Position numbers and translations under genes: made by a program
Notes under the pieces: generated by a model
The model's database searches: none
Told to the model about the DNA's origin: nothing
The model's input: only the letters and a program-made list of their open reading frames with translations
Shown here: piece by piece, positions 44,695-59,508 of the stretch
How the letters are laid out: each line of letters starts with the position of its first letter
How positions within the stretch are numbered: position 1 is the stretch's first letter
Source: Roseimaritima ulvae
Lineage (GTDB): Bacteria > Planctomycetota > Planctomycetia > Pirellulales > Pirellulaceae
Reading direction: 5' to 3'
DNA length: 64,000 nt
NCBI RefSeq assembly: GCF_008065135.1
Contig: NZ_CP042914.1
Location: 5,437,404-5,501,403, forward strand

Positions 44695-46857
44695 ATGTTC
44701 GCGTTTCCGCTTCCAGCCAGTTGCCGAACAGGCCGCCGGCTGACCGTGCCTTGTGTCATGGTTTTGACTGCAGTGTTCTGCTCTGCCTGGCTGGCCCGAC
44801 CGGTCTCCGCGGCAGGGCTGTTGGTCGCCGACGGCGGTTTTGGCGGCGTCTTGGAAATCAAGCAGCAGGACGTCCGGGTGACCATCAATAACTCCATCGC
44901 CGTGACGCAAATCGATCAGATCTTCGTCAATACCGAAAACCGGCAAGTCGAAGCGTTGTACACCTTTCCGGTTCCCCGCGAAGCCAGCGTCTCCAACTTC
45001 AGCATGTGGATCGGCGGCAAAGAAATGATCGGCGAAGTCGTCGAAAAGAAACGAGCCAAACAGATCTACGAAAGCTACAAACAAAAGCGCCGCGATCCCG
45101 GCCTGCTGGAACAGGTCGACTACAAGCAGTTTGAAATGCGGATCTTTCCGATTCCCGCCGGCGCCGAACAGCGAATTCGGATCGAATATTACCAACAACT
45201 CGATGTCGATCACGACTGGGCTACCTACGTCTATCCGCTGGCCACCGATGTGCGAGGCCAACAGATGGACTCTCGCGTTCGCGGTCGGTTCTCGCTGAAT
45301 CTGGACATCAAAAGCGAAGTGCCGATCAAAGAGCTGCGCAGTGAATCGCACGCCGATGACTTCGTGGTCGTCAATCACCAACCCAACTACGCTCAAGCCG
45401 CCATGGAACTGACCGACGGCGATCTATCGCGGGACATCGTGATGGCCGTGCAAACCAAACGCCCCCGCACGGGCCTGGACCTGGTGACCAGCAACCCGCA
45501 AGGCGAAGACGGTTACTTCATGATGACGCTCACCCCCGGCGAAGACCTGAGCGACACGATGGAAGCGATGGACTACGTGTTTCTGATGGATGTGTCGGGC
45601 AGCATGGCTCGCGACGACAAGCTGTCGATCAGCCGCAACAGCGTGCTGGCGTTCATCGATTCGCTGGGCCCCGAAGATCGCTTCGATTGTCTTGCGTTCA
45701 ACCTAGCCCCCACGCCACTCTTCAAAAGCCTGCAGAGTGCCAACCAGGACAACCTCAGTAAAGCCGGCGAGTTCTTCGCCGACCAACGAGCCCGCGGCGG
45801 CACCGTCCTGCAACCCGCTCTATCGGCCGCTTATGCCTATCGCGACGACGATCGGCCGCTGAACGTGGTGCTGCTCAGCGACGGCATGACCGAAGCCGGT
45901 GAACAAGCCGAATTGCTGCGATTAATTCAGTCGCGACCGGCGGGCGTGCGGGTGTTTTGCATCGGAGTCGGCAACGAAGTCAATCGTCCTTTACTGGAGC
46001 AGATGGCCACGCAAGCCGGTGGGCTGGCGGCGTTTGTTTCCACCGAAGACAGCTTCGCTCGACAAGCTCAATTGATGAGGCAGAAACTGGTCCGCCCCGC
46101 GATTCAGAACGTCAACGTGCAATTCGCCAGTGGCGGCGTCAAAGACGTCGAACCCCGCGAACTGGGCGACCTGTTTTACGGCGCTCCGCTGCGATTGTTC
46201 GGTCGCTATGGCACTGGCGGGACGGTGGAAGTCACGCTGACGGGACAGATTCAAGGCGCCCCCTGGGAACAGACCGTGATGATGGAACTTCCCAGCGACG
46301 ATCGAGGCAACAGCGAAATCGAACGCATGTGGGCCTCCCAGCGCGTCGCCCGATTGCTCGGTCAAGAACGTGCCGGCAAGGGATCGCACCAAGACGAAAT
46401 CGTGCGGCTGAGCGAAGCGTATTCGATCGTCTCGCCCTACGCCTCGATGCTGGTGCTGGAGAACGATGGAGAATACAAACGCTGGAAGATCGAGCAACGC
46501 AACGCGCTTCGTATCCAACGCGATCGCAAGGCGCGTTCGCAGGTCCAACAGAAACTCGCCGAACTGCGGAAGCGAACCGACGAAGCGTTTGAAGTCCAGC
46601 GAGCGGAAAAGTTGGTCACGGCCCAAGATGCCGCTGCTTCGCCGGGCAACACGCCCGCGGCCGCTCAACCGAATAACGCCGCCACGCCCAGCCCGATGGC
46701 CACCCCACCCAACTCCAACCGCGGTGTCGATCTGGACATCGGCTCGGGCGGCGGCGGAGGAGCGATCGAACCCTTCACCGCCGTGTTGGCATTAGGCTCG
46801 GCCGGAGCCGCGGCCTTGGCAAGACGACGCAAGAAGCGTGGTGTGGAAGTGCAGTGA
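44695..46857 (+). CDS. VIT-VWA domain surface protein with GlyGly-CTERM-like tail
   Basis: 720 residues: a signal peptide (VMVLTAVFCSAWLARPVSAA), a VIT domain (about 45-175; FPVPREASVSNFSMWIGGKE, RIFPIPAGAEQRIRIEYYQQ), and a VWA domain whose MIDAS DVSGS starts at D299, with T and D ligands later (GGTVLQPALS, LLSDGM). A coiled, charged segment (about 595-640) and a Pro/Ala/Asn-rich linker follow. The C-terminus is tripartite: GSGGGGG (683-689), a hydrophobic stretch AIEPFTAVLALGSAGAAALA (690-709), and RRRKKR (710-715). That order is the one described for GlyGly-CTERM signals (TIGR03501). The next gene is a rhombosortase-like protease, so I infer cleavage and anchoring at this tail. Confidence 0.93.
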   Translation: MFAFPLPASCRTGRRLTVPCVMVLTAVFCSAWLARPVSAAGLLVADGGFGGVLEIKQQDVRVTINNSIAVTQIDQIFVNTENRQVEALYTFPVPREASVSNFSMWIGGKEMIGEVVEKKRAKQIYESYKQKRRDPGLLEQVDYKQFEMRIFPIPAGAEQRIRIEYYQQLDVDHDWATYVYPLATDVRGQQMDSRVRGRFSLNLDIKSEVPIKELRSESHADDFVVVNHQPNYAQAAMELTDGDLSRDIVMAVQTKRPRTGLDLVTSNPQGEDGYFMMTLTPGEDLSDTMEAMDYVFLMDVSGSMARDDKLSISRNSVLAFIDSLGPEDRFDCLAFNLAPTPLFKSLQSANQDNLSKAGEFFADQRARGGTVLQPALSAAYAYRDDDRPLNVVLLSDGMTEAGEQAELLRLIQSRPAGVRVFCIGVGNEVNRPLLEQMATQAGGLAAFVSTEDSFARQAQLMRQKLVRPAIQNVNVQFASGGVKDVEPRELGDLFYGAPLRLFGRYGTGGTVEVTLTGQIQGAPWEQTVMMELPSDDRGNSEIERMWASQRVARLLGQERAGKGSHQDEIVRLSEAYSIVSPYASMLVLENDGEYKRWKIEQRNALRIQRDRKARSQVQQKLAELRKRTDEAFEVQRAEKLVTAQDAAASPGNTPAAAQPNNAATPSPMATPPNSNRGVDLDIGSGGGGGAIEPFTAVLALGSAGAAALARRRKKRGVEVQ

Positions 46858-47391
46858 GGAAGCGAAGCAGGAAGAGTTCCGGCCGTAGCCGAAGTCGCCA
46901 GACTTTGGACGGCCTCGTCGCAAACTGCCCCCGTAGCCGAAGTCGCCAGACTTCGGACCGCCGAACTTAACGCTCCAAACTCTGAGAGAAGTGCGATTTA
47001 CCGGTGGTGAAAGTGTTTTTTCTGTGCGGGGGGATTAACCGTCGAGCGGTAATATCGTCCGGGGAAATTAGGCCCGAAGGGTCGGTACAACCTCTGCCGG
47101 GGCTGTTAAACCCCGGTAGACGCCTCGAAACAAAATTTGAGGCCCGGAGGGTCGACACAACGGCGGTGTTCGCGGCAAATTCGTGAAGGTTGTGTCGACC
47201 CTTCGGGCCTTGCCTGCCTGATGGAGATCGTTCCGGGGGTTGGCCCCCCCGGCAATGATTGTGCCGGCACTCCGTGCCTAACCAGCCCCACAATCGACCT
47301 CAACGCCTCACCAGATTCACGTACTATAACTCGCTCATCCTACGAGTTCGGCTACGAATATCGACCGCCCGCCTTCCCACGCAACCCCATC
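46858..47391. repeat. Repeat-rich gap between VIT-VWA and rhombosortase genes
   Basis: Two REP2 copies (46884-46908 and 46932-46956) and a near-perfect hairpin with 22-base arms, AGGCCCGGAGGGTCGACACA (from 47140) facing GTTGTGTCGACCCTTCGGGC (47189-47210). A related GGCCCGAAGGGTCGG lies at about 47071-47085. No gene is supported. Despite the 534-base gap, the flanking genes have the same direction. Confidence 0.85.
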
Positions 47392-48048
47392 ATGATGATC
47401 CTATCACCCCTGAAAAGATATCCGATTACGATCGCCACTGCGGCATTCGCTCTGTTGGCCTTTGCCAGCCCCACGCTGACCGCTTGGTTGCAGCTGGATT
47501 TCGCGGCGGTTGCCGATGGACAATGGTGGCGAATTATCACCGGCCACATGACTCACTTTGGCGGGCACCATCTATTTTGGGACCTGTTGATGTTTGTGGT
47601 CCTAAGCGCGGCCTGTGAACGTCAGCATCGCCGACACTTTGGCATCGCGACGCTGTTGATGATGGCCGGCATCTCGCTGGCGATTCGGTTTTTCTGTGAC
47701 GACATCGCGGTTTATCGAGGTCTGAGCGGACTCGACACCGGCCTGTTTGTGTGGTTTGTCAGTGACCAGTGTCGACAAAGTTTGCGGCAATGCGATCGGC
47801 TCGCGACGCTGCTGTGGTTGGCTCCGTTGATCGGGCTGGTCGGCAAGCTGCTTTTCGAAGCGATCACCGGGCAGACCTTGTTCGTCGATTCCAGCACCTT
47901 CGAGCCGTTGGTCGAAGCCCATCTGGCCGGCGCGGCGATCGGTGCGGCGCTCTCGTACGTTAGGCTTTCCAGCCTGACAAACACCCGCCAGCGTTTCGAA
48001 AAGTCTCCCGTAGCCGAACTCCCCAGAGTTTGGAAAAGCGCCCCGTAG
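47392..48048 (+). CDS. rrtA: Rhombosortase-like rhomboid serine protease
   Basis: 218 residues from the ATG at 47392 (a second ATG follows directly; no clear ribosome-binding site). About six hydrophobic helices. The pattern DGQWWRIITGHMTHFGGHHL followed by FWDLLMFVVL, the nucleophile Ser112 in YRGLSGLDTG, and His177 in EPLVEAHLAGAAIGA match rhombosortases (TIGR03902 type), the rhomboid branch that cuts GlyGly-CTERM proteins, rather than general GlpG rhomboids. The gene lies after the VIT-VWA protein that carries such a tail. The last ~30 residues (from about YVRLSSL at 189) are encoded by a REP3 copy (47955-47979) and a REP2 copy (48009-48033), so the original C-terminus may have been replaced. 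Confidence 0.85.
   Translation: MMILSPLKRYPITIATAAFALLAFASPTLTAWLQLDFAAVADGQWWRIITGHMTHFGGHHLFWDLLMFVVLSAACERQHRRHFGIATLLMMAGISLAIRFFCDDIAVYRGLSGLDTGLFVWFVSDQCRQSLRQCDRLATLLWLAPLIGLVGKLLFEAITGQTLFVDSSTFEPLVEAHLAGAAIGAALSYVRLSSLTNTRQRFEKSPVAELPRVWKSAP
47955..47979 (+). repeat. REP3 copy inside the 3' end of the rhombosortase gene
   Basis: GTACGTTAGGCTTTCCAGCC followed by TGACA matches the arms of the hairpin at 62880-62939. It encodes YVRLSSLT in the rhombosortase frame. Confidence 0.85.
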
Positions 48049-48110
48049 CCGAACTCGCAAGAGTTCGGAGGGCTGCACGCAGTTCCAAAGTCTGGCGACG
48101 CTCGGCTACG
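48009..48110. repeat. Three REP2 copies across the rhombosortase stop codon
   Basis: Forward copies at 48009-48033 and 48044-48068 and an inverted copy at 48085-48110. The first encodes the end of the rhombosortase ORF and the second contains its stop. Confidence 0.85.
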
Positions 48111-48206: not shown

Positions 48207-51200
48207 ATGTCGTCCGCTCGCTCATGGTTTGTGTTCACGCTTGCTCTCAGCTTGCTACTCCACTTCGACGCCGTCGGGCAGGAGCCTCAACCGGCCGAAG
48301 GTGAACCGCGGGCTACGTTGATCACGTCTCTGCCGACCATTGATCTCGGCATCCACGCGGCGATGCAGTCGCGTGACTACGGCGAAGCGGTCAAACGCAT
48401 CGAAACGGCGATCGGCAAAGATGACTGCACGGCGCCGGACTACCTGCGGTACCTGCAAGGCGTCGCCTTGACCGAATCGAAACTCTATGACGCTGCCACG
48501 GCCGCCTTCGCGCAACTGGAAACCGACTACCCGGACAGCGAATGGATCAGCCGGGCCCGCTTTGGTCGAGCTCACGTCAACGTCATGCTTCGGCAGTACA
48601 GCGACGCCGGGAAAATCTATGAACGTGAAGCCGAGCGACTGCTGTCGCGCGGACGCAAAGACGAACTGGCAAAAATCTATCTGGAATTCGCCGAACGATA
48701 TTTCGTCGGTCTTCCCGCCGATGATCCCAGCAAAACCGTTCAGCCGGATTACGCCCAGTCGTTGGTGTTTTACACCGAAGCCGTCAAGCTGGGCCCCACG
48801 ATTGGGCTGCGGCAACAGATCGAATTCCGCATCGCTCGCTGCCAGGAAGAATTGCAACAGCACGACGAGGCCATTGCTTCGTATCAACGCTTCCTCAAGC
48901 AGTACGCCGGGCAAACGCCCAAGTCCTCCGTGGCAGCTAGCCCCTCGGTGCAAGCCGAAGCTCGCTATCGCTTGGGAGCCGTGCAGCTGACCGCCGGACG
49001 TCCTCAACAGGCCCGCAAGACTTGGCAAGATTTTTTGTCACAAGCTGACCAGAAACACGCTGACGACGCGGCGGCCGACGACAACGGCAATGAGAAAATC
49101 GAAAAACTGCGGTCGCGAGCCGAATACCGTTTGGCGCATACCTACGGGTTGCCTCAACCGAACTCCATCGGCGACCTGGAATTAGCGGTGGGACTGGCCG
49201 AAAAATTTGTCGCCAAACACCCTCAACATAAATTGGCCCCGCAGGCGGAACTCGAAATCGCTCAAGGCTATTCGCGACACGGCCGGCATCTGCAAGCGGT
49301 CCAGCGGCTGCAAAAACTGATCGACAACCCGCTCTACAAAAACTCCGAACAACTTCCCGCAGTCCGACAGATGCTCGGTCAGGAATTGCTCGCCCAAGGA
49401 AAATACGACGAAGCCATCGCGGCCTGGAAACAATTCCTCGATCAGCATCCCACCGATTCCAGATGGCCGGAGGTGCAAAAGCGGATCGTCGACACCGAAT
49501 ACGCCAAGGCCGCCAACGCGCTGGCAGAAAAGCGGTACGAGGCCGCGCGTACTCAGTGGCAAACCTTCCTAAACAAATACCCGCTCGACGCCCGAGCACC
49601 GGGGATTCTGTTTGCTTTCGGGAAAATGAAGTACACCGAAGCAAAACAGTTGCAGGACCAACGTGTGGCAGCGGCGGTCGAACAGGGCGAATCGCCGCAA
49701 ACGGTGTCGCTGGATGATGCCAGCGTTCAATTATTCGAAGAAGCGATCGTGGATTGGCGGCGTGTCGTCAATAAATACCCGCAACACGTCGAGGCCTCCA
49801 AGGCCGCCTACATGATCGGCGTCACGCTGGAAGACCAACTAGGCGAGCTAAAGCAAGCGCTGGAGGCCTATAAGCAGGTCAACGGCGCATTTCAGTCGCA
49901 AGCCCAACAGCGCACCGCTCGCCTGACATCGCCCGAACTGCAATTGGTCACCGAACGCAAGTTCCGCAGCGACGAAGTCCCACGCATCAAGTTGACCACC
50001 CGCAATCTGGAAACGGTGACCGTCAAAGTCTACCGCGTCGACATGGCGGACTACTTTCGCAAAATGCATCTGGCTCGCGGGGTGGAATCGCTCGACATCG
50101 CTCTGATCGATCCCGACCAACAGTTCGAACATAAGATCGGCGACTTCCAAAAATACAAACAACTTGATGGTGACATCGAACTGGACATGGAGGGTCCCGG
50201 CGTCGTCGCCGTTACGGTCAGCAGCGAAAAGTTGGAAGCCACCACGATGGTCGTCGTCAGCGACGTGGACATGATCGTCAAATCCTCACGCAACGAATTG
50301 TTTGTGTTCGCCGAAAACATGCGGACCGGCAAGCCCGTCGAAGGGGTCAGCGTGCTGGTCAGCGACGGCGAGAAGGTGTTTGCCGAAACGACCACCGGCG
50401 CGGATGGCATTCTGCAACAGTCCTACGACGAATTAAAGACCGTCAGCGATTTGCGGGTATTTGCCATTCACGAAGGCCACATGGCGTCGACCGTCAACAA
50501 CCTGGACGGGCTGGACTTCGCCGTCGGGTTGACCCCGCGCGGCTTTCTCTACACCGATCGTCCCGTCTACCGCAGTGGCCAATTAGTCAACATCAAAGGT
50601 ATCGTGCGGTGGGTGAAGCAAGATCGATTTACCTTCCAACCCGGCGAAACCTTCCAACTAGATGTGTACGACGCGGGCGGACGACGACTGCAAAGCCGCG
50701 AAGTCGTGTTGAACGGCTACGGTACGATCAACAGCAATATCATTCTGCCCGACTCCGCACCGCAGGGTGATTACCGCGTGCACTTGCATCGCGCGTCCGC
50801 GGGAGAATCCGACAAAACGGGGACATTGTCCTTCGAAACCCAGTTCAAGGTTCATGAGTACAAACTGGAACCGGTGGAAATCGCCATCGACCTGGACAAA
50901 GCGGTTGCTTTTCGCGGCGAAAAGGTTCGTGCCACGGTGTCGCTGAAGTACTACTATGGGACGCCTTTGAGCAACGAAACGATCCACTATCGGTTCGGCC
51001 CCGACGGCGAACAGATGACAGGCAAGACGGACGACCAAGGCAATCTGGCCGTGGAGTTCGAAACGCAACGTTTCAGCGAATCCCAGCCCCTGCAGTTGGT
51101 TGTCGAATACCGCGAACGAGCGTTGTCCGCCTCCGAAACCGTGTTCCTGGCCACGCGCGGGTTTGCCGTAACGGCATCGACGGTCCGCGACGTGTATATC

Positions 51201-54200
51201 AACGGCGAATCCTTCGAAACGCTGTTCAAAGTCGCCGGTCCGGCAGGCGATGCGGTGGCCACGGAACTGACGATCGAGGTCTTCCGGCAAACGCAGGTCC
51301 GCGGCCAGACGACTGAAAAGCGAGTGCAAACGCATCAGGTGAAAACCGACGCGAAACTTGGTGAGGCTCGTCAGACGCTGACGCTGGACGAAGGCGGGAT
51401 CTATCTGATTCGCGCTACCGGAGTGGACCGATTCGGCAACGACGTCAGTGGCGAGCACTCATTGCGTATCTCCGGCGATAAAGATTCCACTCGTTTGCGA
51501 ATCCTGGCCGATCGTCATTCCTTCGATGTGGGCGAGCAAGCGGAAATCAACTTGCACTGGCGAGAACAACCCGCGCTGGCGTTAGTGACCTTCGAAGGGG
51601 CATCGGTTTTGGGCTATCGCTTGGTCGAGTTGCAAGCAGGAGACAATCCGTTGCAATTGCCGATGGAAAGCGATTTCGCTCCCAATCTGTTTGTTTCCGT
51701 GGCCGTGATGCAACGCAACCAATTCCATATCGCCTCCAGCGAATTCCGGGTTGCGCAAGAGTTACAGATCACGCTGAAACCGGATGCGAAGGAACTGAAA
51801 CCCGGCGAAGAGGTAACGGTCGAAGTGGTCGTCACCGATCCGCAAGGCCGTCCGCTGGAAACCGAACTGTCACTGTCTCTGGTGCAAGCCAACCTGCTGA
51901 ACCTATTTGCCGACGCTCACGGCACGGTGAACGAATTTTTCAGCAGTGGCCAGCGAAGGCGATCGGTAAGAGAGTCAACCAGTTGCACCTTCAGCTATCG
52001 CCCGGACACCCAAGGCGTGAGCCAGTTCCTCCGCAACGAAGCCGAACGCTTGGCGATCATCGAACGCGAAGTCCGCGCATTGGACGAATTGGGCGAGAGC
52101 ATAGCCATGGGCATGAATGTCCCAGCCGATCCCTTTGCGGCAACGTTCGATCTCCCATCACAGTCGATCGATCGCAATGCCATCGAACAGATCGAATCGT
52201 TTAACATGCAGCAAGCGGGGCAACTTTCGCAGCAGATCCAAATCATCCCGAACGTCCGTTTCCGCACTGAGACTCGCGACGGGCGACAAATTCAGGTGCC
52301 CAACGCTAACCGCGAGAACGCAGCGATCTATTTTGATGAGTTATCAAGTGAGCAAATCATACAAGCACAACAAAATTACAACGTCTTGGGCACGTGGGAG
52401 CGACGATATGCAGGGCGGTTCGGCTATGACATTACCGTCAATGGCTTAACGTCCACCGGTAAGTTCCTGGCGGTCAATGGGCGTGCGCCCCGAGACATCG
52501 AACAGTTGGCTCGCGACGAAGGCTTGCAGATCCTGCCCTCGATGGCTTATTCGGAAACCGCGTTTTGGGACCCGACGATCGTTACCGATGCCAAGGGCAA
52601 GGCCAGCGTCACCATCACTCTGCCGACACGCTCTACCGCTTGGCGATTGCAGGCCAAGGGGATCAATGCTCAAACGTTAGCCGGCCAAGCCTCAACGGAG
52701 TTGATCACCAAAAAAGATCTGTTCGGCGAACTGAAATTGCCTTTGGCGTTTACCGAGGGTGACCAAGTCGAGGTGCCCGTGGAAATTCACAATGCCCTGG
52801 AAGGTCCACACACGATCAAGGTGGTCATGAAAGTCACCCAGGGGGACAAATCGACCGAGCAGACGCAGTCGTTCGACATCACCGGTCCGGGAATTCACCC
52901 TTTGTCCTTCCCGGTCGAAATCGAAGACGCGGAAGAGGCCGTATTCGAGTTAACCACTTCCGCCGACGCCGCGCCCATCGACGTCGCTTCGCAGATCGTC
53001 GCCATTCGGCCCTACGGTTTTCCGGTGTATCAAACCGCCAGCGGGACCTCGTCGCAAAGCACGGTGGCACTGCTGAGTTTTGACAAAAACACTCCGGCAG
53101 CCGGCGCGTCGATGGAAATCGTGATTGGCGCCAGCGTCAATCGCGCCCTGCTGGACAGCGTGCTGGGCGATGATTCATTGCCCTTGCTGCGGTGCGGTCT
53201 GCCCACGGCCCGGCCGCTGGAACGGAGCATCTCCGATACGCTGGGTGGGATCGCCCTACTGCAGATGATCGGCGGAGCCCGCAATTCGGACGCTCCTCAG
53301 CGGCAAGCCGTGGCGGGGCGGATTTCGGTGGCCGTCACGCAGATGATCGCTTCACAAAACCAACATGGCGGTTGGGCTTGGTCGGGTGCTCCTCAGACGG
53401 ACAGCTCCGATCCGTACCTTTCCTCCCGCATCATGTGGGCGCTCAGTCAGGCTCGTAGCGCTGGCTTTGCCGTCTCGCAAGAAGCCTTCGACAAAGGCAA
53501 AGCCTATCTTCAAACCGCCTTCGCCGCGGCCGACCAAAGCGATTTAGAACAACAGACAATCCTGCTGCACGGCATGGCTGTCTGCGGTTGTGGTGATTTT
53601 GCGTTTGCCAATCGGTTGTATCGCGAACGCAATCGTTTGAGCCCCGCCGCTCTGACGCATTTGGCACTGACGTTGGCGAAGATGAATCGTCCGGAAATGG
53701 CCAAAACGCTGATCCCATTGATCAAGATCCCGACTGATGAGGCGTCCCTGACGGCTTCGCAGCGAGCCGGCACGCTGCCCTGGATGCGGAACCGCACCGA
53801 ATTGCAAGCCATGTTCCTGCTGACGTTGCAAGCCGTCGAGCCGAATCATCCGGCGGTCGCGGCGCTTGCTAAGTCGTTGATGTCGCAACGCGTCGGATCG
53901 CGTTGGCCGGTAGAAAAGTCCAATGGTCCCGTCATCGCGGCACTCGCCTACTGGCATTCCCGAACGCGTCAGCCGCTGGAGAAATACACTCTGGTCGTGT
54001 CGGTTAACAATCACACGTTAAAAACGCTGACCATCGATCCGGCTCGCGAAGGCAGTCACCGCATCGAAGTGGACAACGAAATCCTACACGGCGACCAACC
54101 GCAACGGCTCGAGTTCAAACTCGACGGCCGGGCCACGTTCAGCTATTCCGCCGTGTTGACCGGGTTTGTCGACGCCGACAAAATCGCCGCCACTACCAAT

Positions 54201-56447
54201 GACTGGACCGTTCAGCGGCGATATGAACCGGCACAGAAACTATTCGCCGGCCGCCCGGTGCCGCGAGGCTTTGGCGTCGTCGACGGCAGCTACACCAGTT
54301 TCACTAATCCGTTGACGCAGCTGCCAGTCGGTAACCGCGGTGAAGTTACGTTGTTCCCGCGACGGCGGAATGTAAACAGTCGCAGCAACGAGCGGTATGA
54401 CTACCTGGTGCTGACCGAACCCATTCCGGCCGGTTGTACCGTGCTGGCTGATTCGGTTCACGGCGCGTTTGAACGCTACGAAATCGAACCTGGCCAGATC
54501 ACCTTCTACATTGGCGACCGACGGTATCCCGGCGATATTCGCTATACGTTGGTGGGCTATGTCCCGGGGCAATATCGCGTTCCGCAGTCGATCCTCCGCA
54601 GCTTTTACGAACCCGATCGGTTTACCGTGTCAGGGCTGGCCGCGCTGACGGTGTTGGATGCCGATGGGCAGTCGAGCGACGCATACAAATGGACTCCCGA
54701 CGAACATTATTACCTCGGCCAACAGCAGCACGAGCGAAAGAACTACGACGCCGCCCATGATCACCTGACGACCTTGTTCGAAAACTGGCGGTTGGATGCG
54801 GACAAATACAAGAACGTCGTCCAATGGTTGTTCTCTACATCGCTGGCTAAAAACCATCACGGCGATACGGTGCGGTACTTTGAGATCCTCAAAGAAAAAT
54901 TCCCCGATGTCGAACTCAGCTTCGAAAACATTTTGCGGGTTGCCAAGTCGTATCAGGAGTTGGGTGAATACGAGCGCAGCTACCTGGTCTATCGAGCGAC
55001 CGTGGAAGCCAGTTTTGAACGCGAATCGCAGGTAGCTGGGTTCTTGAACGCTCGCGGCGAATTTGTCCGCAGCGTGCAAGCGTTGGAGGGGCTGCTACGC
55101 GATTATCCGGCGGAAGCTTATGTCGCCACGGCCACCTACGCCTTGGCCCAGGAAACCTATCGACGCGCCCCCTTGGCCGCCGAAGACGAAAAATTGAAAG
55201 CCGCCGAATTGACGCGAGTGCATTTGATCGACGCGGCAATCACCATGCTCGACCACTTCGTCACCACCTGGCCGGCCGATCCGGCGGACGACCAAGCCAG
55301 CTTTGCATTGGCCACCGCACTGATTGATCTGGAACAATACGAGCAAGCCATCGACCGCTGTGAAGCTTACGCCCAGCGTTATCCCAACAGCCGCCTGCTG
55401 GATTCCTACTGGTACATCATCGGCTACAGCCATTTCGAACTGGAGCACCCCGAAGAGGCTTTGCAGATGTGTCGCAAAGTCGCCGAGGCGGCATTTCCTG
55501 TGTCCGAAACCGGTGGTACTCGCGCGGCGGACAACCGTTGGGAAGCGATTTACATCATGGGTCAGATCTACCACAGCTTGGGACAAGCCGCCCGCGCGAT
55601 CAGCGAATACGCCAAGGTCGAGCAGCGATTTGCCGATGCCAGCGAAGCGATCAAATTTTTCAACCGCAAGGCGATTGCCCTGCCCGAGGTGACCACGATC
55701 GAACCGGACGCAGCCAAGCAGGTGGAACTGGAATTCCGCAATCTGAGCGAAGCGGCGATCAAGGTGTATCGCATCGACTTGATGAAATTTGGGTTAATGC
55801 AGCGCAACCTGGACCGGATCACGGCCATCAATCTAGCCGGCATTCAGCCGTATCACGAAGAAGTCGTATCGCTCGGCGATGGTAATGACTTCCGCGATCG
55901 GACCAAGCCGTTGACCTTGCCGCTGAACGAAGAAGGCGCTTATTTGATCGTCTGCCGCGGTGAAAATCTGTATGCGTCGGGTTTGGCGTTGGTCAGCCCT
56001 CTGAAACTGTTGGTTCAAGAAGACGCCACCTCGGGACGCGTGCGGGTGAGTGTGAAAGACGCCACCGAAGATTCGTTTGTCAGTGACGTGCACGTCAAAG
56101 TCATCGGTTCCGCGAACGACAAGTTTGTGTCCGAGAACACGGACCTGCGTGGTTTAGCGATCGCCGATGACATCCGTGGCACCAGCACGGTGATCGCCAT
56201 GCACGACAGCAATCGGTACGCGTTTTACCGAGGCCAGACGGTGTTGCAGGAGGTTCAAACGGAACCCAACGCACCCGAGGCTGGGCAGCAGGCCGCCGAA
56301 CAACCCGGCAAGCCCAGCAAAGGCAAAGGCGCGTTGCGCGACAACCTGTTTAATCAGAATTCAATTTTCCAGATGGAACAGAACAGCAACTGGGACTCGC
56401 TATTGAACAACAGCCGCACCGGAGTCCAATCCAAAGAAGCCTACTAA
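48207..56447 (+). CDS. Giant exported TPR / alpha-2-macroglobulin-like protein without thioester
   Basis: 2746 residues, with AAAGGAAG before the ATG and a signal peptide (WFVFTLALSLLLHFDAVGQ). Order of parts: TPR-like repeats (about 50-570); an MG-type module (about 575-770; IKLTTRNLETVTVKVYRVDM); MG2 (YTDRPVYRSGQLVNIKG, near 782) and further MG domains; a bait-like low-complexity stretch (about 1230-1340); the A2M region (FWDPTIVTDAKGKASVTI, near 1453); a thioester-domain fold (about 1640-1930; HGGWAWSGAPQTDSSDPYLS); a receptor-binding-like part (about 2065-2145); a second TPR block (about 2160-2490); and a second copy of the MG module (about 2500-2660; VELEFRNLSEAAIKVYRIDL). Where CxEQ should be, it has C1663-Gly-Leu-Pro. 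Bacterial macroglobulins trap proteases; this one probably works without covalent capture. Confidence 0.9.
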   Translation: MSSARSWFVFTLALSLLLHFDAVGQEPQPAEGEPRATLITSLPTIDLGIHAAMQSRDYGEAVKRIETAIGKDDCTAPDYLRYLQGVALTESKLYDAATAAFAQLETDYPDSEWISRARFGRAHVNVMLRQYSDAGKIYEREAERLLSRGRKDELAKIYLEFAERYFVGLPADDPSKTVQPDYAQSLVFYTEAVKLGPTIGLRQQIEFRIARCQEELQQHDEAIASYQRFLKQYAGQTPKSSVAASPSVQAEARYRLGAVQLTAGRPQQARKTWQDFLSQADQKHADDAAADDNGNEKIEKLRSRAEYRLAHTYGLPQPNSIGDLELAVGLAEKFVAKHPQHKLAPQAELEIAQGYSRHGRHLQAVQRLQKLIDNPLYKNSEQLPAVRQMLGQELLAQGKYDEAIAAWKQFLDQHPTDSRWPEVQKRIVDTEYAKAANALAEKRYEAARTQWQTFLNKYPLDARAPGILFAFGKMKYTEAKQLQDQRVAAAVEQGESPQTVSLDDASVQLFEEAIVDWRRVVNKYPQHVEASKAAYMIGVTLEDQLGELKQALEAYKQVNGAFQSQAQQRTARLTSPELQLVTERKFRSDEVPRIKLTTRNLETVTVKVYRVDMADYFRKMHLARGVESLDIALIDPDQQFEHKIGDFQKYKQLDGDIELDMEGPGVVAVTVSSEKLEATTMVVVSDVDMIVKSSRNELFVFAENMRTGKPVEGVSVLVSDGEKVFAETTTGADGILQQSYDELKTVSDLRVFAIHEGHMASTVNNLDGLDFAVGLTPRGFLYTDRPVYRSGQLVNIKGIVRWVKQDRFTFQPGETFQLDVYDAGGRRLQSREVVLNGYGTINSNIILPDSAPQGDYRVHLHRASAGESDKTGTLSFETQFKVHEYKLEPVEIAIDLDKAVAFRGEKVRATVSLKYYYGTPLSNETIHYRFGPDGEQMTGKTDDQGNLAVEFETQRFSESQPLQLVVEYRERALSASETVFLATRGFAVTASTVRDVYINGESFETLFKVAGPAGDAVATELTIEVFRQTQVRGQTTEKRVQTHQVKTDAKLGEARQTLTLDEGGIYLIRATGVDRFGNDVSGEHSLRISGDKDSTRLRILADRHSFDVGEQAEINLHWREQPALALVTFEGASVLGYRLVELQAGDNPLQLPMESDFAPNLFVSVAVMQRNQFHIASSEFRVAQELQITLKPDAKELKPGEEVTVEVVVTDPQGRPLETELSLSLVQANLLNLFADAHGTVNEFFSSGQRRRSVRESTSCTFSYRPDTQGVSQFLRNEAERLAIIEREVRALDELGESIAMGMNVPADPFAATFDLPSQSIDRNAIEQIESFNMQQAGQLSQQIQIIPNVRFRTETRDGRQIQVPNANRENAAIYFDELSSEQIIQAQQNYNVLGTWERRYAGRFGYDITVNGLTSTGKFLAVNGRAPRDIEQLARDEGLQILPSMAYSETAFWDPTIVTDAKGKASVTITLPTRSTAWRLQAKGINAQTLAGQASTELITKKDLFGELKLPLAFTEGDQVEVPVEIHNALEGPHTIKVVMKVTQGDKSTEQTQSFDITGPGIHPLSFPVEIEDAEEAVFELTTSADAAPIDVASQIVAIRPYGFPVYQTASGTSSQSTVALLSFDKNTPAAGASMEIVIGASVNRALLDSVLGDDSLPLLRCGLPTARPLERSISDTLGGIALLQMIGGARNSDAPQRQAVAGRISVAVTQMIASQNQHGGWAWSGAPQTDSSDPYLSSRIMWALSQARSAGFAVSQEAFDKGKAYLQTAFAAADQSDLEQQTILLHGMAVCGCGDFAFANRLYRERNRLSPAALTHLALTLAKMNRPEMAKTLIPLIKIPTDEASLTASQRAGTLPWMRNRTELQAMFLLTLQAVEPNHPAVAALAKSLMSQRVGSRWPVEKSNGPVIAALAYWHSRTRQPLEKYTLVVSVNNHTLKTLTIDPAREGSHRIEVDNEILHGDQPQRLEFKLDGRATFSYSAVLTGFVDADKIAATTNDWTVQRRYEPAQKLFAGRPVPRGFGVVDGSYTSFTNPLTQLPVGNRGEVTLFPRRRNVNSRSNERYDYLVLTEPIPAGCTVLADSVHGAFERYEIEPGQITFYIGDRRYPGDIRYTLVGYVPGQYRVPQSILRSFYEPDRFTVSGLAALTVLDADGQSSDAYKWTPDEHYYLGQQQHERKNYDAAHDHLTTLFENWRLDADKYKNVVQWLFSTSLAKNHHGDTVRYFEILKEKFPDVELSFENILRVAKSYQELGEYERSYLVYRATVEASFERESQVAGFLNARGEFVRSVQALEGLLRDYPAEAYVATATYALAQETYRRAPLAAEDEKLKAAELTRVHLIDAAITMLDHFVTTWPADPADDQASFALATALIDLEQYEQAIDRCEAYAQRYPNSRLLDSYWYIIGYSHFELEHPEEALQMCRKVAEAAFPVSETGGTRAADNRWEAIYIMGQIYHSLGQAARAISEYAKVEQRFADASEAIKFFNRKAIALPEVTTIEPDAAKQVELEFRNLSEAAIKVYRIDLMKFGLMQRNLDRITAINLAGIQPYHEEVVSLGDGNDFRDRTKPLTLPLNEEGAYLIVCRGENLYASGLALVSPLKLLVQEDATSGRVRVSVKDATEDSFVSDVHVKVIGSANDKFVSENTDLRGLAIADDIRGTSTVIAMHDSNRYAFYRGQTVLQEVQTEPNAPEAGQQAAEQPGKPSKGKGALRDNLFNQNSIFQMEQNSNWDSLLNNSRTGVQSKEAY

Positions 56448-57872: not shown

Positions 57873-58442
57873 TTAGTTGCTGACGCGTTCGACGTACTCG
57901 CCGGTGCGGGTGTCGACTTTGATCACATTGCCTTCCTTGATGAATCCGGGCACGGTAAATTCCGCGCCGGTTTCGCACTTGGCGGGCTTGGTGACGTTGG
58001 TCGCCGTGTCGCCCTTGGCACCGGGGACGCATTCGATGACTTCCAATTCCACGTGATTGGGAGCTTCGACGACGATCGGGTTGGCGTTATACAGCGTCAT
58101 CGTGCAGGTCATACCGTCTTTGAGGTACTTCCAGATGTCGCCGGCCGTGTCGGCGCTGACTTCGTATTGTTCGAAGTTGGCGCTATCCATGAACACAAAA
58201 TCTTCGCCCTGGCGGTACAGGAACTGAACGTCTACGGTTTCGACATCAGCGCTTTCCAGAGAGTCCCCCCCTTTGTAGGTACGTTCGAGAATCGTGCCTC
58301 GAACCAGGTTCCTCATCCGACATTTGTAAAACGCGTTGCCCTTGCCGGGTTTGACGAACGTCATGTCGATCATCAGATAGGGATCGCCGTCAATTTGAAT
58401 CTTCAGGCCTTTGCGAAAGTCGCTGGTATTATAAGTTGCCAA
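57873..58442 (-). CDS. efp: Elongation factor P (TTG start)
   Basis: 189 residues from a TTG at 58442: (M)ATYNTSDFRKGLKIQIDGDP. CGGAG lies upstream and the length is exactly that of canonical EF-P; the longer frame would add 135 residues overlapping epmB. The modifiable loop VKPGKGNAFYK puts Lys at position 34, the residue that EpmA/EpmB beta-lysylate in E. coli. EF-P rescues ribosomes stalled at polyproline. epmB is divergently encoded, its start only 17 bases away, which supports lysylation. epmA is not in the window. Confidence 0.95.
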   Translation of the reverse strand: MATYNTSDFRKGLKIQIDGDPYLMIDMTFVKPGKGNAFYKCRMRNLVRGTILERTYKGGDSLESADVETVDVQFLYRQGEDFVFMDSANFEQYEVSADTAGDIWKYLKDGMTCTMTLYNANPIVVEAPNHVELEVIECVPGAKGDTATNVTKPAKCETGAEFTVPGFIKEGNVIKVDTRTGEYVERVSN

Positions 58443-58458
58443 GTTTTCGAGTCTCCGA

Positions 58459-59508
58459 GTGGCTGGGTGGGTTTTTGTGGACGAAATTTTAGCGAGCGAT
58501 GAGCAGTCTGTCCGCGCCCTTTGTCCAGGCGACCCTGCGGTGGGTTGGCGACAGGCCATGCGGAGGGCGATTCGAGACCCGAAAGAATTGTGCCGCCGCC
58601 TGGAACTGCCCGTTTCGCTAGGGAATTCCGGGGCTGCGGAAGCCTTTCCCGTTTTCGTCCCGCTAGAGTTCTTGTCGAGAATGCGGGTCGGCGATCCGTC
58701 CGATCCGTTGCTGCGACAGGTATTGGCCGCCGAACCGGAAACGCATTCCCCCGCCGGCTTCGTCTCCGATCCGCTTGATGAACAAAAGGCCAGTCCACTG
58801 CCGGGCCTGCTGCACAAGTACCACGGTCGGGCTCTGTTGGTCACCACCGGCGCCTGCGCGGTGCACTGCCGATACTGCTTTCGCCGTCATTTCCCTTATC
58901 AGTCGGTGCCCAAAAGCGCCGCGGCCTGGGCTCCCGCGGTGTCACACATCCAAGCTGATTCGTCGATCGAAGAGGTTTTGCTCAGCGGCGGCGATCCGCT
59001 GACCTTGGTCGATAGTCTGCTGGGCCAGCTGGTCCATTCGCTGGACGCAATCCCTCACATTCGTCGCCTGCGATTCCACACGCGGTTGCCGATCGTGATC
59101 CCGCAGCGGGTGACCGATCAACTGCTGGAGCTGCTGACCGAGTTGCGAGCGACGCCCTGGATGGTCGTACATTGCAATCACGTGGCGGAATTGGATGAGG
59201 CCACGCTGGCGGCGCTGGGGCGATTGATCGATGCGGGGATTCCGGTGCTGAACCAAGCCGTGTTGCTGCGAGGCGTGAACGATTCGGTGGAAGCGCTGGA
59301 GCAACTGTCGCTGCGGCTGGTCGATCACCGCGTGCAACCCTACTACCTGCACCAGCTGGACCGCGTCCAAGGCGCGGCGCATTTCGAAGTTAGCGAAGCG
59401 GAAGGCAGGCGGTTGATCGCCGAGCTGCGGACACGACTGCCCGGTTACGCGATGCCGCAGTACGTCCGCGAGCTGCCCGGCGAAGCATCGAAAATGCCGG
59501 TGGAGTGA
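58459..59508 (+). CDS. epmB: EF-P beta-lysylation protein EpmB (radical-SAM lysine 2,3-aminomutase)
   Basis: 349 residues from a GTG at 58459; a start up to about 20 codons later is possible because the region is shared with the efp 5' end. The radical-SAM cysteines are C133, C137 and C140 (GACAVHCRYCFRRHFPY). Family motifs include GFVSDPLDEQ, PGLLHKYHGRALLVTTGAC, LLSGGDPLTLVD and PYYLHQLDRVQGAAHFEV, collinear with E. coli EpmB. It isomerises (S)-alpha-lysine to (R)-beta-lysine, which EpmA then attaches to EF-P Lys34. Pairing with efp makes KamA-type catabolic function unlikely. Confidence 0.93.
   Translation: MAGWVFVDEILASDEQSVRALCPGDPAVGWRQAMRRAIRDPKELCRRLELPVSLGNSGAAEAFPVFVPLEFLSRMRVGDPSDPLLRQVLAAEPETHSPAGFVSDPLDEQKASPLPGLLHKYHGRALLVTTGACAVHCRYCFRRHFPYQSVPKSAAAWAPAVSHIQADSSIEEVLLSGGDPLTLVDSLLGQLVHSLDAIPHIRRLRFHTRLPIVIPQRVTDQLLELLTELRATPWMVVHCNHVAELDEATLAALGRLIDAGIPVLNQAVLLRGVNDSVEALEQLSLRLVDHRVQPYYLHQLDRVQGAAHFEVSEAEGRRLIAELRTRLPGYAMPQYVRELPGEASKMPVE

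Follow-up and report, generated by a model that had tools for sequence, protein, structure and literature searches.

Can a rhombosortase be dedicated to a single protein and, if so, what in that protein does it read? The question is raised by two neighbouring genes in a stretch of 64,000 nucleotides from the planctomycete Roseimaritima ulvae (contig NZ_CP042914.1, positions 5,437,404 to 5,501,403), hereafter the window, whose source genome comprises 8,212,515 bases in a single contig. According to the open reading frame (ORF) list both genes lie on the + strand at the coordinates given in Table 1, with a spacing of 534 bases; the first encodes a 720-residue protein with VIT and VWA domains (P0001, the client) and the second a 218-residue rhombosortase (P0002, the enzyme). 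An earlier note, made from the letters of the window, had suggested that the pairing of the two may be one-to-one. We consider it likely that they constitute a dedicated two-gene protein-sorting cassette, in which the rhombosortase would trim and anchor this one VIT-VWA client.

The enzyme: family and active site

The family of P0002 was assessed with hidden Markov models (HMMs). TIGR03902 (rhombosortase) scores 126.8 bits against a cut-off of 84, while the GlpG family model reaches 30.9 bits and Pfam Rhomboid 43.4 bits (cut-off 22.6); no other rhomboid model is better, and an ordinary GlpG-type rhomboid is ruled out by the difference between 126.8 and 30.9 bits. In the window's genome TIGR03902 exceeds its cut-off once, the remaining matches being at or below 51 bits, and all 50 sequences of alignment A3, the window's own counted, match it at E<=0.001. 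The AlphaFold2 model of P0002 (50-sequence alignment) has a mean predicted local distance difference test score of 91.6; its PDB matches at E<=0.001 number 33, every one a GlpG, and the modelled fold appears to be GlpG-like. No PHROG match was found at E<=0.001, and a phage origin of the enzyme was rejected on this ground.

Two motifs define rhombosortases according to Haft & Varghese 2011 (PMC3237569; cited throughout for parts of its text): WRxxS/T in a loop and AHxxGxxxG in the last core helix. Both are present in P0002, as WWRIIT at 45-50 (W45-W-R-I-I-T50) and AHLAGAAIG at 176-184, and the putative catalytic residues, Ser112 in YRGLSGLDT and His177 in EAHLAG, are those from which the earlier note had recognized a rhombosortase; the HMM scores bear this reading out. 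The same source reports SGxxH, that is, His at S+4, in virtually all rhombosortases; what is said here of the proteobacterial enzymes rests on that paper. The active site of P0002 is Ser112-Gly-Leu-Asp115-Thr116, with Thr at S+4. Asp followed by Thr or Ser occupies S+3/S+4 in all 14 sequences of a set made of the window's enzyme and 13 found by similarity. Among 24 other planctomycete matches to TIGR03902 the residue at S+4 is Ser or Thr in 18, His in 2, Tyr in 2 and Asn in 1, with 1 unaligned; the S+3/S+4 pairs are DS (14), AT/AS (4), LH (2), LN, NY and VY (1 each), and 1 unaligned. As SGxxH is a reported signature and not a stated rule of membership, we regard the deviation as a variant. The two LH enzymes (L212, L217) are likewise close to VIT-VWA genes, whose tails read GGGALGP; the type of client is thus independent of the active-site class.

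The client and its tail

Pfam assigns to P0001 a VIT domain (111.7 bits) and a VWA domain (VWA_3, 64.9 bits); DVSGS at 299-303, GGT at 368-370 and SD at 395-396 occupy the positions of what we take to be a metal-ion-dependent adhesion site (MIDAS). The C-terminus is GSGGGGGAIEPFTAVLALGSAGAAALARRRKKRGVEVQ, in which GSGGGGGAIEP (683-693) is followed by the hydrophobic stretch, RRRKKR (710-715) and five last residues. Translation and Pfam thus agree with the earlier description of a VIT-VWA protein ending in GSGGGGG, a hydrophobic stretch and RRRKKR, and P0001 combines this tripartite architecture with a probable signal peptide (recognized by hydropathy and by eye).

The likeness of the tail to GlyGly-CTERM, also proposed earlier, did not extend to the family model: TIGR03501 has no match to P0001 at E<=10 (cut-off 15.5 bits), and it is absent among the families listed (25 of 27) for 72 cassette tails. 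TIGR03867 (MprA_tail, a GlyGly-CTERM variant) is borderline, with 19.1 bits on the full-length protein and 24.5 on the last 75 residues (cut-off 19.7); it matches 33 of the 72 tails at E<=1. GGG is invariant in the 72 tails, and the consensus is mostly GGG-[AP]-[IL]-[DEG]-P. In 69 parsed clients the four letters after the glycines are AIDP (37), PIGP (13), ALDP (7), ALDR (3) and AFDP (2); five other motifs occur once each and 2 were misparsed (AIDP by eye). These 69 are part of 71 clients, L164 and L194 being read separately, since in these two the longest frame of the enzyme begins within the gene of the client. The tail, whose absence from orthologues would have told against the proposal, is present in 12 of 12 close ones, and a divergent thirteenth client (genome G012) ends in another glycine-rich tail, GGGGGSVEW...

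P0001 also has matches, all below cut-off, to models for VIT proteins that belong to other sorting systems: TIGR03788 (sortase), TIGR04477 (XrtN), TIGR04286 (MSEP-CTERM) and TIGR02921 (PEP-CTERM). It seems that sorting enzymes have repeatedly had VIT proteins as clients.

Conservation of the gene pair

Relatives of the enzyme were sought at E<=1e-8 in 98 genomes, the window's own included, and found in 14. In all 13 other enzyme-bearing genomes the enzyme gene is immediately preceded, in the same strand, by a VIT-VWA gene, whose product is 54-76% identical to P0001 in 12 of them and 24% in G012. Searching named genomes with the alignment of the enzyme turned up 147 relatives, of which the pattern YRGLSG[LIV]D[TS][AGM] kept 80; active-site counts from these 80 loci would be circular and were not used. 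A VIT-VWA gene is directly upstream at 71 of the 71 evaluable named loci, in some cases as a fragment at a contig end, and at the other 9 the contig leaves 299 bases or fewer upstream. The named loci overlap with the relatives among the 98 genomes (same records) and include many near kin, so that the loci cannot be counted as independent events. Chance adjacency is ruled out by the 71 evaluable loci, and the adjacency in related genomes that the earlier note had singled out for checking can be regarded as conserved. The distance between client and enzyme, measured in 69 pairs, ranges from a 141-base overlap to 888 bases and is often a few bases; it is larger than 534 bases in just 4. Record titles of the 80 loci are mostly Planctomycetota, plus Verrucomicrobia/Opitutaceae and Lentisphaerae; odd labels (Desulfobulbaceae, Proteobacteria, Nealsonbacteria) may be binning errors.

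A search with TIGR03902, independent of the scan pattern, placed 25 matches over cut-off among the 294 planctomycete genomes searched. Of the 24 matches other than the window's, 20 are accompanied by a same-strand VIT-VWA frame somewhere within a flank of about 1.5 kb or less. Of the four without such a frame, L206 has only about 280 bases upstream; the remaining three are possible exceptions to the pairing and are weighed below. One Rubripirellula metagenome-assembled genome (MAG; bin_ak_oxhcr2.033) carries two rhombosortase loci on separate contigs (L117 and L130); either the genome has two cassettes or the bin is mixed.

When the reading frames of the 80 loci were clustered, three groups besides the two genes themselves, with members in 55, 23 and 19 loci, were represented by examples that overlap the cassette genes in a different frame; two more occur in 15 loci (example L159 2971-3603) and in 14 loci, the latter sulfatase-like by eye. 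No good candidate for a third conserved cassette gene, such as a lipid-attaching enzyme, was recognized among them.

One enzyme, one client

A close orthologue of the client (at least 787 bits) is present in 13 of the 98 genomes, and the enzyme in all 13; with the best 11 or fewer candidates scored in most genomes, the other listed matches at E<=1e-60 do not exceed 249.1 bits. G012 has the enzyme beside its divergent VIT-VWA protein. A profile of 13 tails, applied to the best 150 or fewer candidates of each genome, gives one match per genome in 13 of 13 (E 3.4e-18 to 4.4e-11); having been built from the same tails, it tests for extra copies and not for the tail itself. In the window's own genome (best 150 of 315 candidates) the single match has E 1.1e-16 and the next 0.051. 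No match below 0.001 is obtained from the best 150 or fewer candidates in G012 (best 0.325) or in 14 enzyme-free genomes (best 0.00105). A profile of 72 tails likewise finds one match in each of six genomes, four of Rhodopirellula type among them (best 150 or fewer candidates each). The codon pattern GGGAI[DE]P occurs once in the whole genome of the window, in the client gene; of its 17 matches in 28 genomes, 13 are tails of the cassette and the other 4 fall in different frames or in proteins that lack such an end. VIT-VWA paralogues at 17 loci of enzyme-free genomes served as a control: 3 frames were not found, 1 was open, and the 13 with a readable end all lack the tail. The pairing of enzyme and client thus looks one-to-one at the level of these sequence searches. 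The earlier suggestion holds for the window's genome and for each of 12 relatives, where a single tail was found among the best 150 or fewer candidates, and a sharing of the tail by distant proteins, which would have spoken against it, was not seen among the best 150 of 315.

Probable exchange of the client in Rhodopirellula-type loci

In 13 Rhodopirellula-type loci the enzyme is 48-61% identical to that of the window and the client 25-27%. At L118 (Stieleria tagensis) the values are 61% and 27%, and in Roseimaritima sediminicola 60% and 76%. Trees were calculated for 65 rows, namely the window and 64 of the 71 loci, those with a client shorter than 500 residues being dropped. In the enzyme tree a window group of five and the 13 Rhodopirellula-type loci make up one split (bootstrap 100, Shimodaira-Hasegawa-like approximate likelihood ratio test (SH-aLRT) 99); the 13 alone are also a split (99/92), and the window group of five is weakly supported (63/39). 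The client tree, which is of the quick kind, separates the clade of the 13 (SH-aLRT 100) from 39 window-type clients (99). On all 65 rows, a tree that keeps these 39 together as a clade is rejected on the enzyme data (p of the approximately unbiased test (p-AU) 1.0e-4); elsewhere in the enzyme tree the window type and the remaining client type are mixed, with mostly low support. In a 28-row subset, picked after the first trees had been seen, the enzyme data reject the window group together with the other window-type rows (p-AU 1.6e-7); its grouping with the Rhodopirellula type is rejected by the client data (p-AU 0.0076). TIGR03788, the marine proteobacterial sortase target, matches all 13 Rhodopirellula-type clients at E<=1e-120 versus none of 4 window-type clients; two of the former score 525.9 and 532.7 bits over positions 2-596 of 629 (cut-off 551.65).

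The conflict between the enzyme and client trees is documented by these tests, and suggests that a related enzyme was kept beside a different VIT-VWA protein, near the marine-sortase-target family. Because related enzymes adjoin two very different VIT-VWA proteins, what the enzyme recognizes seems to be set by the tail and by the pairing of the genes, and not by the body of the client. The surroundings bear on where the exchange took place. Downstream of the cassette the window has two genes, at 57873-58847 and 58459-59508, which we take to be EF-P and EpmB; similar genes follow the cassette in G001, of the same genus. EF-P likewise follows the cassette, with the same orientation, at four Rhodopirellula-type loci (L126, L128, L131, L134; L128 and L131 match EpmB too) and at the distant window-type locus L029; neither the remaining loci (7 kb flanks) nor the stretches of G002 and G009 yielded it. 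Its distance to the enzyme is about 10 kb in the window and about 14 kb in G001, beyond the 7 kb flanks of the named loci. Since the shared position is limited to a few loci, exchange in place is likely for one sub-group only, as far as gene order indicates, with either a new client or a new enzyme as its direction.

Proposed mechanism and its alternatives

In the mechanism that we propose, P0001 would enter the envelope via its signal peptide and stay in the inner membrane through the hydrophobic stretch near its C-terminus, RRRKKR facing the cell interior. The rhombosortase (Ser112/His177) would cut at the glycine run just before AIEP, exposing a new glycine C-terminus that would probably be joined to an amino-bearing lipid, as proposed for VesB of Vibrio cholerae; after export via a secretin-type pore the MIDAS-bearing VWA protein would stay on the outer surface. 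In V. cholerae the enzyme cuts VesB so as to expose the second glycine, the new end bears a glycerophosphoethanolamine-containing moiety, and the type II system carries VesB to the surface (PMC6219818, likewise cited for parts of its text); GlyGly-CTERM motifs are reported to be interchangeable there. We transfer cleavage to the window with good confidence and lipid attachment with less; surface display of the client would be expected by the same analogy.

Several points weigh against this mechanism. While the enzyme family, the tail, the pairing and its one-to-one distribution are established by comparison of sequences, the cleavage, lipid attachment, export route and surface position of the client are predictions. 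The S+4 residue is Thr instead of the His of the 2011 enzymes, and the V. cholerae chemistry may not carry over. A whole-genome search with TIGR03501 lists no site in the client gene, and the tail searches could miss clients with a very different tail. Three TIGR03902 matches over cut-off (L210, L214, L219) have a flank without a VIT-VWA frame and no evident contig end. All 28 genomes that were tested have secretins, whether they carry the enzyme or lack it; this permits the export route but is not diagnostic of it, and the secretin was rejected as a discriminating partner. Finally, with a 534-base spacer between them, the two genes may or may not be co-transcribed.

The anchoring step has a competitor in an enzyme that only hydrolyses, shedding the VIT-VWA protein into the medium or periplasm. 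The Asp-Thr at S+3/S+4, different from the SGxxH reported for rhombosortases, would fit such an enzyme, and in V. cholerae VesB cut by GlpG is released and not retained (PMC6219818); but the architecture of the tail and the enzyme family belong to anchoring systems, and the match of all A3 sequences to TIGR03902 points the same way, so that we hold simple shedding to be unlikely. Still less probable, in our view, is that the enzyme also serves proteins with weaker PEP-CTERM-like tails, which would make the one-to-one pairing true of strong tails only. The tail profile does give 18 further weak matches in the window's genome (E up to 10, best 0.051, among the best 150 of 315 candidates), and TIGR03501 gives 4 (best E 1.02); however, the three of the 18 that are shown span profile positions 12-38 only, the hydrophobic-basic part without a glycine run, and enzyme-free genomes yield weak matches of the same kind.

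The exchange of clients, in turn, could be an artefact of fast client evolution or of chimeric MAG contigs. Very long stem branches in the client tree (5.98, 3.14 and 2.22 changes per column) and the weakness of the window group of five in the enzyme tree are what such an artefact would leave behind. Against it stand five records titled as strain-level and non-MAG (L118, L122, L123, L124, L152), the coherence of the clients within the 13-locus group (59-68% identical to that of L118), the clean division of the two client types by TIGR03788, and the 28-row tests, in which the client data reject the joint clade and the enzyme data the split one. We give an artefact only a small chance, and retain a dedicated anchoring cassette with an exchanged client as the preferred interpretation.

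Features of the locus and its surroundings

Table 1. Coordinates of the cassette features, numbered from the first letter of the window.
Feature	Coordinates	Strand	Basis
VIT-VWA client gene (P0001), 720 residues	44695..46857	+	ORF; Pfam VIT 111.7 bits, VWA_3 64.9 bits
Probable signal peptide, about residues 1-40	44695..44814	+	hydropathy scan, peak 16-34, then PVSAA; cleavage site by eye
VIT domain, residues 55-165	44857..45189	+	Pfam PF08487
VWA domain, residues 295-447	45577..46035	+	Pfam PF13768
Tripartite sorting tail	46741..46839	+	GSGGGGGAIEP 683-693, hydrophobic to about 709, RRRKKR 710-715; 13-row tail alignment
534-base spacer, two copies of a 24-base repeat (46885-46908, 46933-46956)	46858..47391	.	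repeat search
Rhombosortase gene (P0002), 218 residues	47392..48048	+	TIGR03902 126.8 bits; AlphaFold2 model; PDB matches
WWRIIT loop motif (WRxxS/T)	47524..47541	+	motif definition: PMC3237569 (part of the text)
Putative catalytic Ser112 with Gly113, Leu114, Asp115, Thr116 (S+4 = Thr, not His)	47725..47739	+	14-sequence alignment
Putative catalytic His177 in AHLAGAAIG (AHxxGxxxG)	47920..47922	+	invariant in 14/14 and 50/50 sequences, window's own in both

A scan of the spacer gave no sigma-70-like promoter, a result of little weight as shuffles averaged 0.4. The 24-base repeat (GTAGCCGAAGTCGCCAGACTTTGG and a variant), an imperfect palindrome by eye, has 7 copies in the window and 0 in shuffles: the two of the spacer, 48010-48033, 48045-48068 and 3 more. 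By its coordinates one copy encodes the final residues of the rhombosortase. Genome-wide there are 620 copies on both strands with at most 2 mismatches, and 0 of the reversed control. After the cassette, 48207-56447 encodes a 2746-residue protein with alpha-2-macroglobulin domains and tetratricopeptide repeats (Pfam), which G001 also has but which a search of the G002 and G009 stretches did not reveal; its position beside an inter-alpha-inhibitor-like protein may be due to chance.

Implications

A broader picture, to which we assign about even chances, is that in Planctomycetota and neighbouring phyla a rhombosortase is private to VIT-VWA proteins, mostly with SG-x-[DA]-[ST] in the enzyme and a GGG-[AP]-[IL]-[DEG]-P tail in the client, and that in the Rhodopirellula lineage the client was replaced by a re-tailed VIT-VWA protein belonging to the family anchored by a sortase in marine proteobacteria. 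If this is true, unrelated C-terminal sorting enzymes (sortase, exosortases, rhombosortase) have repeatedly been recruited for VIT-VWA proteins, and C-terminal anchoring belongs to what these proteins do. One enzyme with one client would be a minimal system for testing what a rhombosortase reads; the natural exchange of the client beside a related enzyme predicts that it reads the tail and not the passenger, and the Asp-Thr/Ser active site can be compared, as a natural variant, with that of His-bearing enzymes. The cassette may also provide a handle on how planctomycetes put adhesin-like VWA proteins on their surface.

Relation to known systems

A planctomycete with a dedicated pair had been reported before: Haft & Varghese 2011 (PMC3237569) tabulated an adjacent rhombosortase-target pair for Rhodopirellula baltica SH 1 and showed VIT-VWA proteins with such tails, and theirs was the only report on planctomycete GlyGly-CTERM or rhomboid sorting signals that we found in the open-access literature. 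What appears to be new here, as judged from the sequences compared, is the S+4 Thr/Ser variant, the tail variant (missed by TIGR03501, borderline for TIGR03867) and the conflicting trees of enzyme and client. No report of the Asp-Thr/Ser class or of client exchange was found in the open-access literature searched, which covers part of the rhombosortase literature, nor did it yield one linking an exosortase with a VIT domain.

Like the pairs of 2011 (PMC3237569), the cassette places a rhomboid-family enzyme beside a single target with a glycine run, a hydrophobic stretch and a basic end, VIT-VWA proteins being among the targets; unlike them, as far as the cited parts go, it has Thr/Ser in place of His at S+4 and a tail missed by TIGR03501. 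It also goes beyond them in that the pairing is seen here at 71 evaluable loci, most of them from planctomycete records and some under the labels Verrucomicrobia, Opitutaceae and Lentisphaerae. With RssP/VesB of V. cholerae (PMC6219818), the origin of the proposed cleavage and lipid chemistry, it shares a tripartite tail and a rhombosortase; V. cholerae has five other GlyGly-CTERM proteins besides VesB, whereas the window has one VIT-VWA client next door. The best family model for the tail, TIGR03867, is named after a different client, the MprA protease. The TIGR03788 system (LPXTG, sortase TIGR03784) is similar in having a VIT-VWA protein as the sole client of a dedicated sorting enzyme, but the tail and enzyme of the window are of the rhombosortase kind, its client scores 262.8 bits on TIGR03788 (cut-off 551.65), and there is no LPXTG in its tail. 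Overall, the two genes make up a genuine sorting cassette with a dedicated enzyme, of a type already known and distinguished by a variant active site, a variant tail and the re-pairing of its client.

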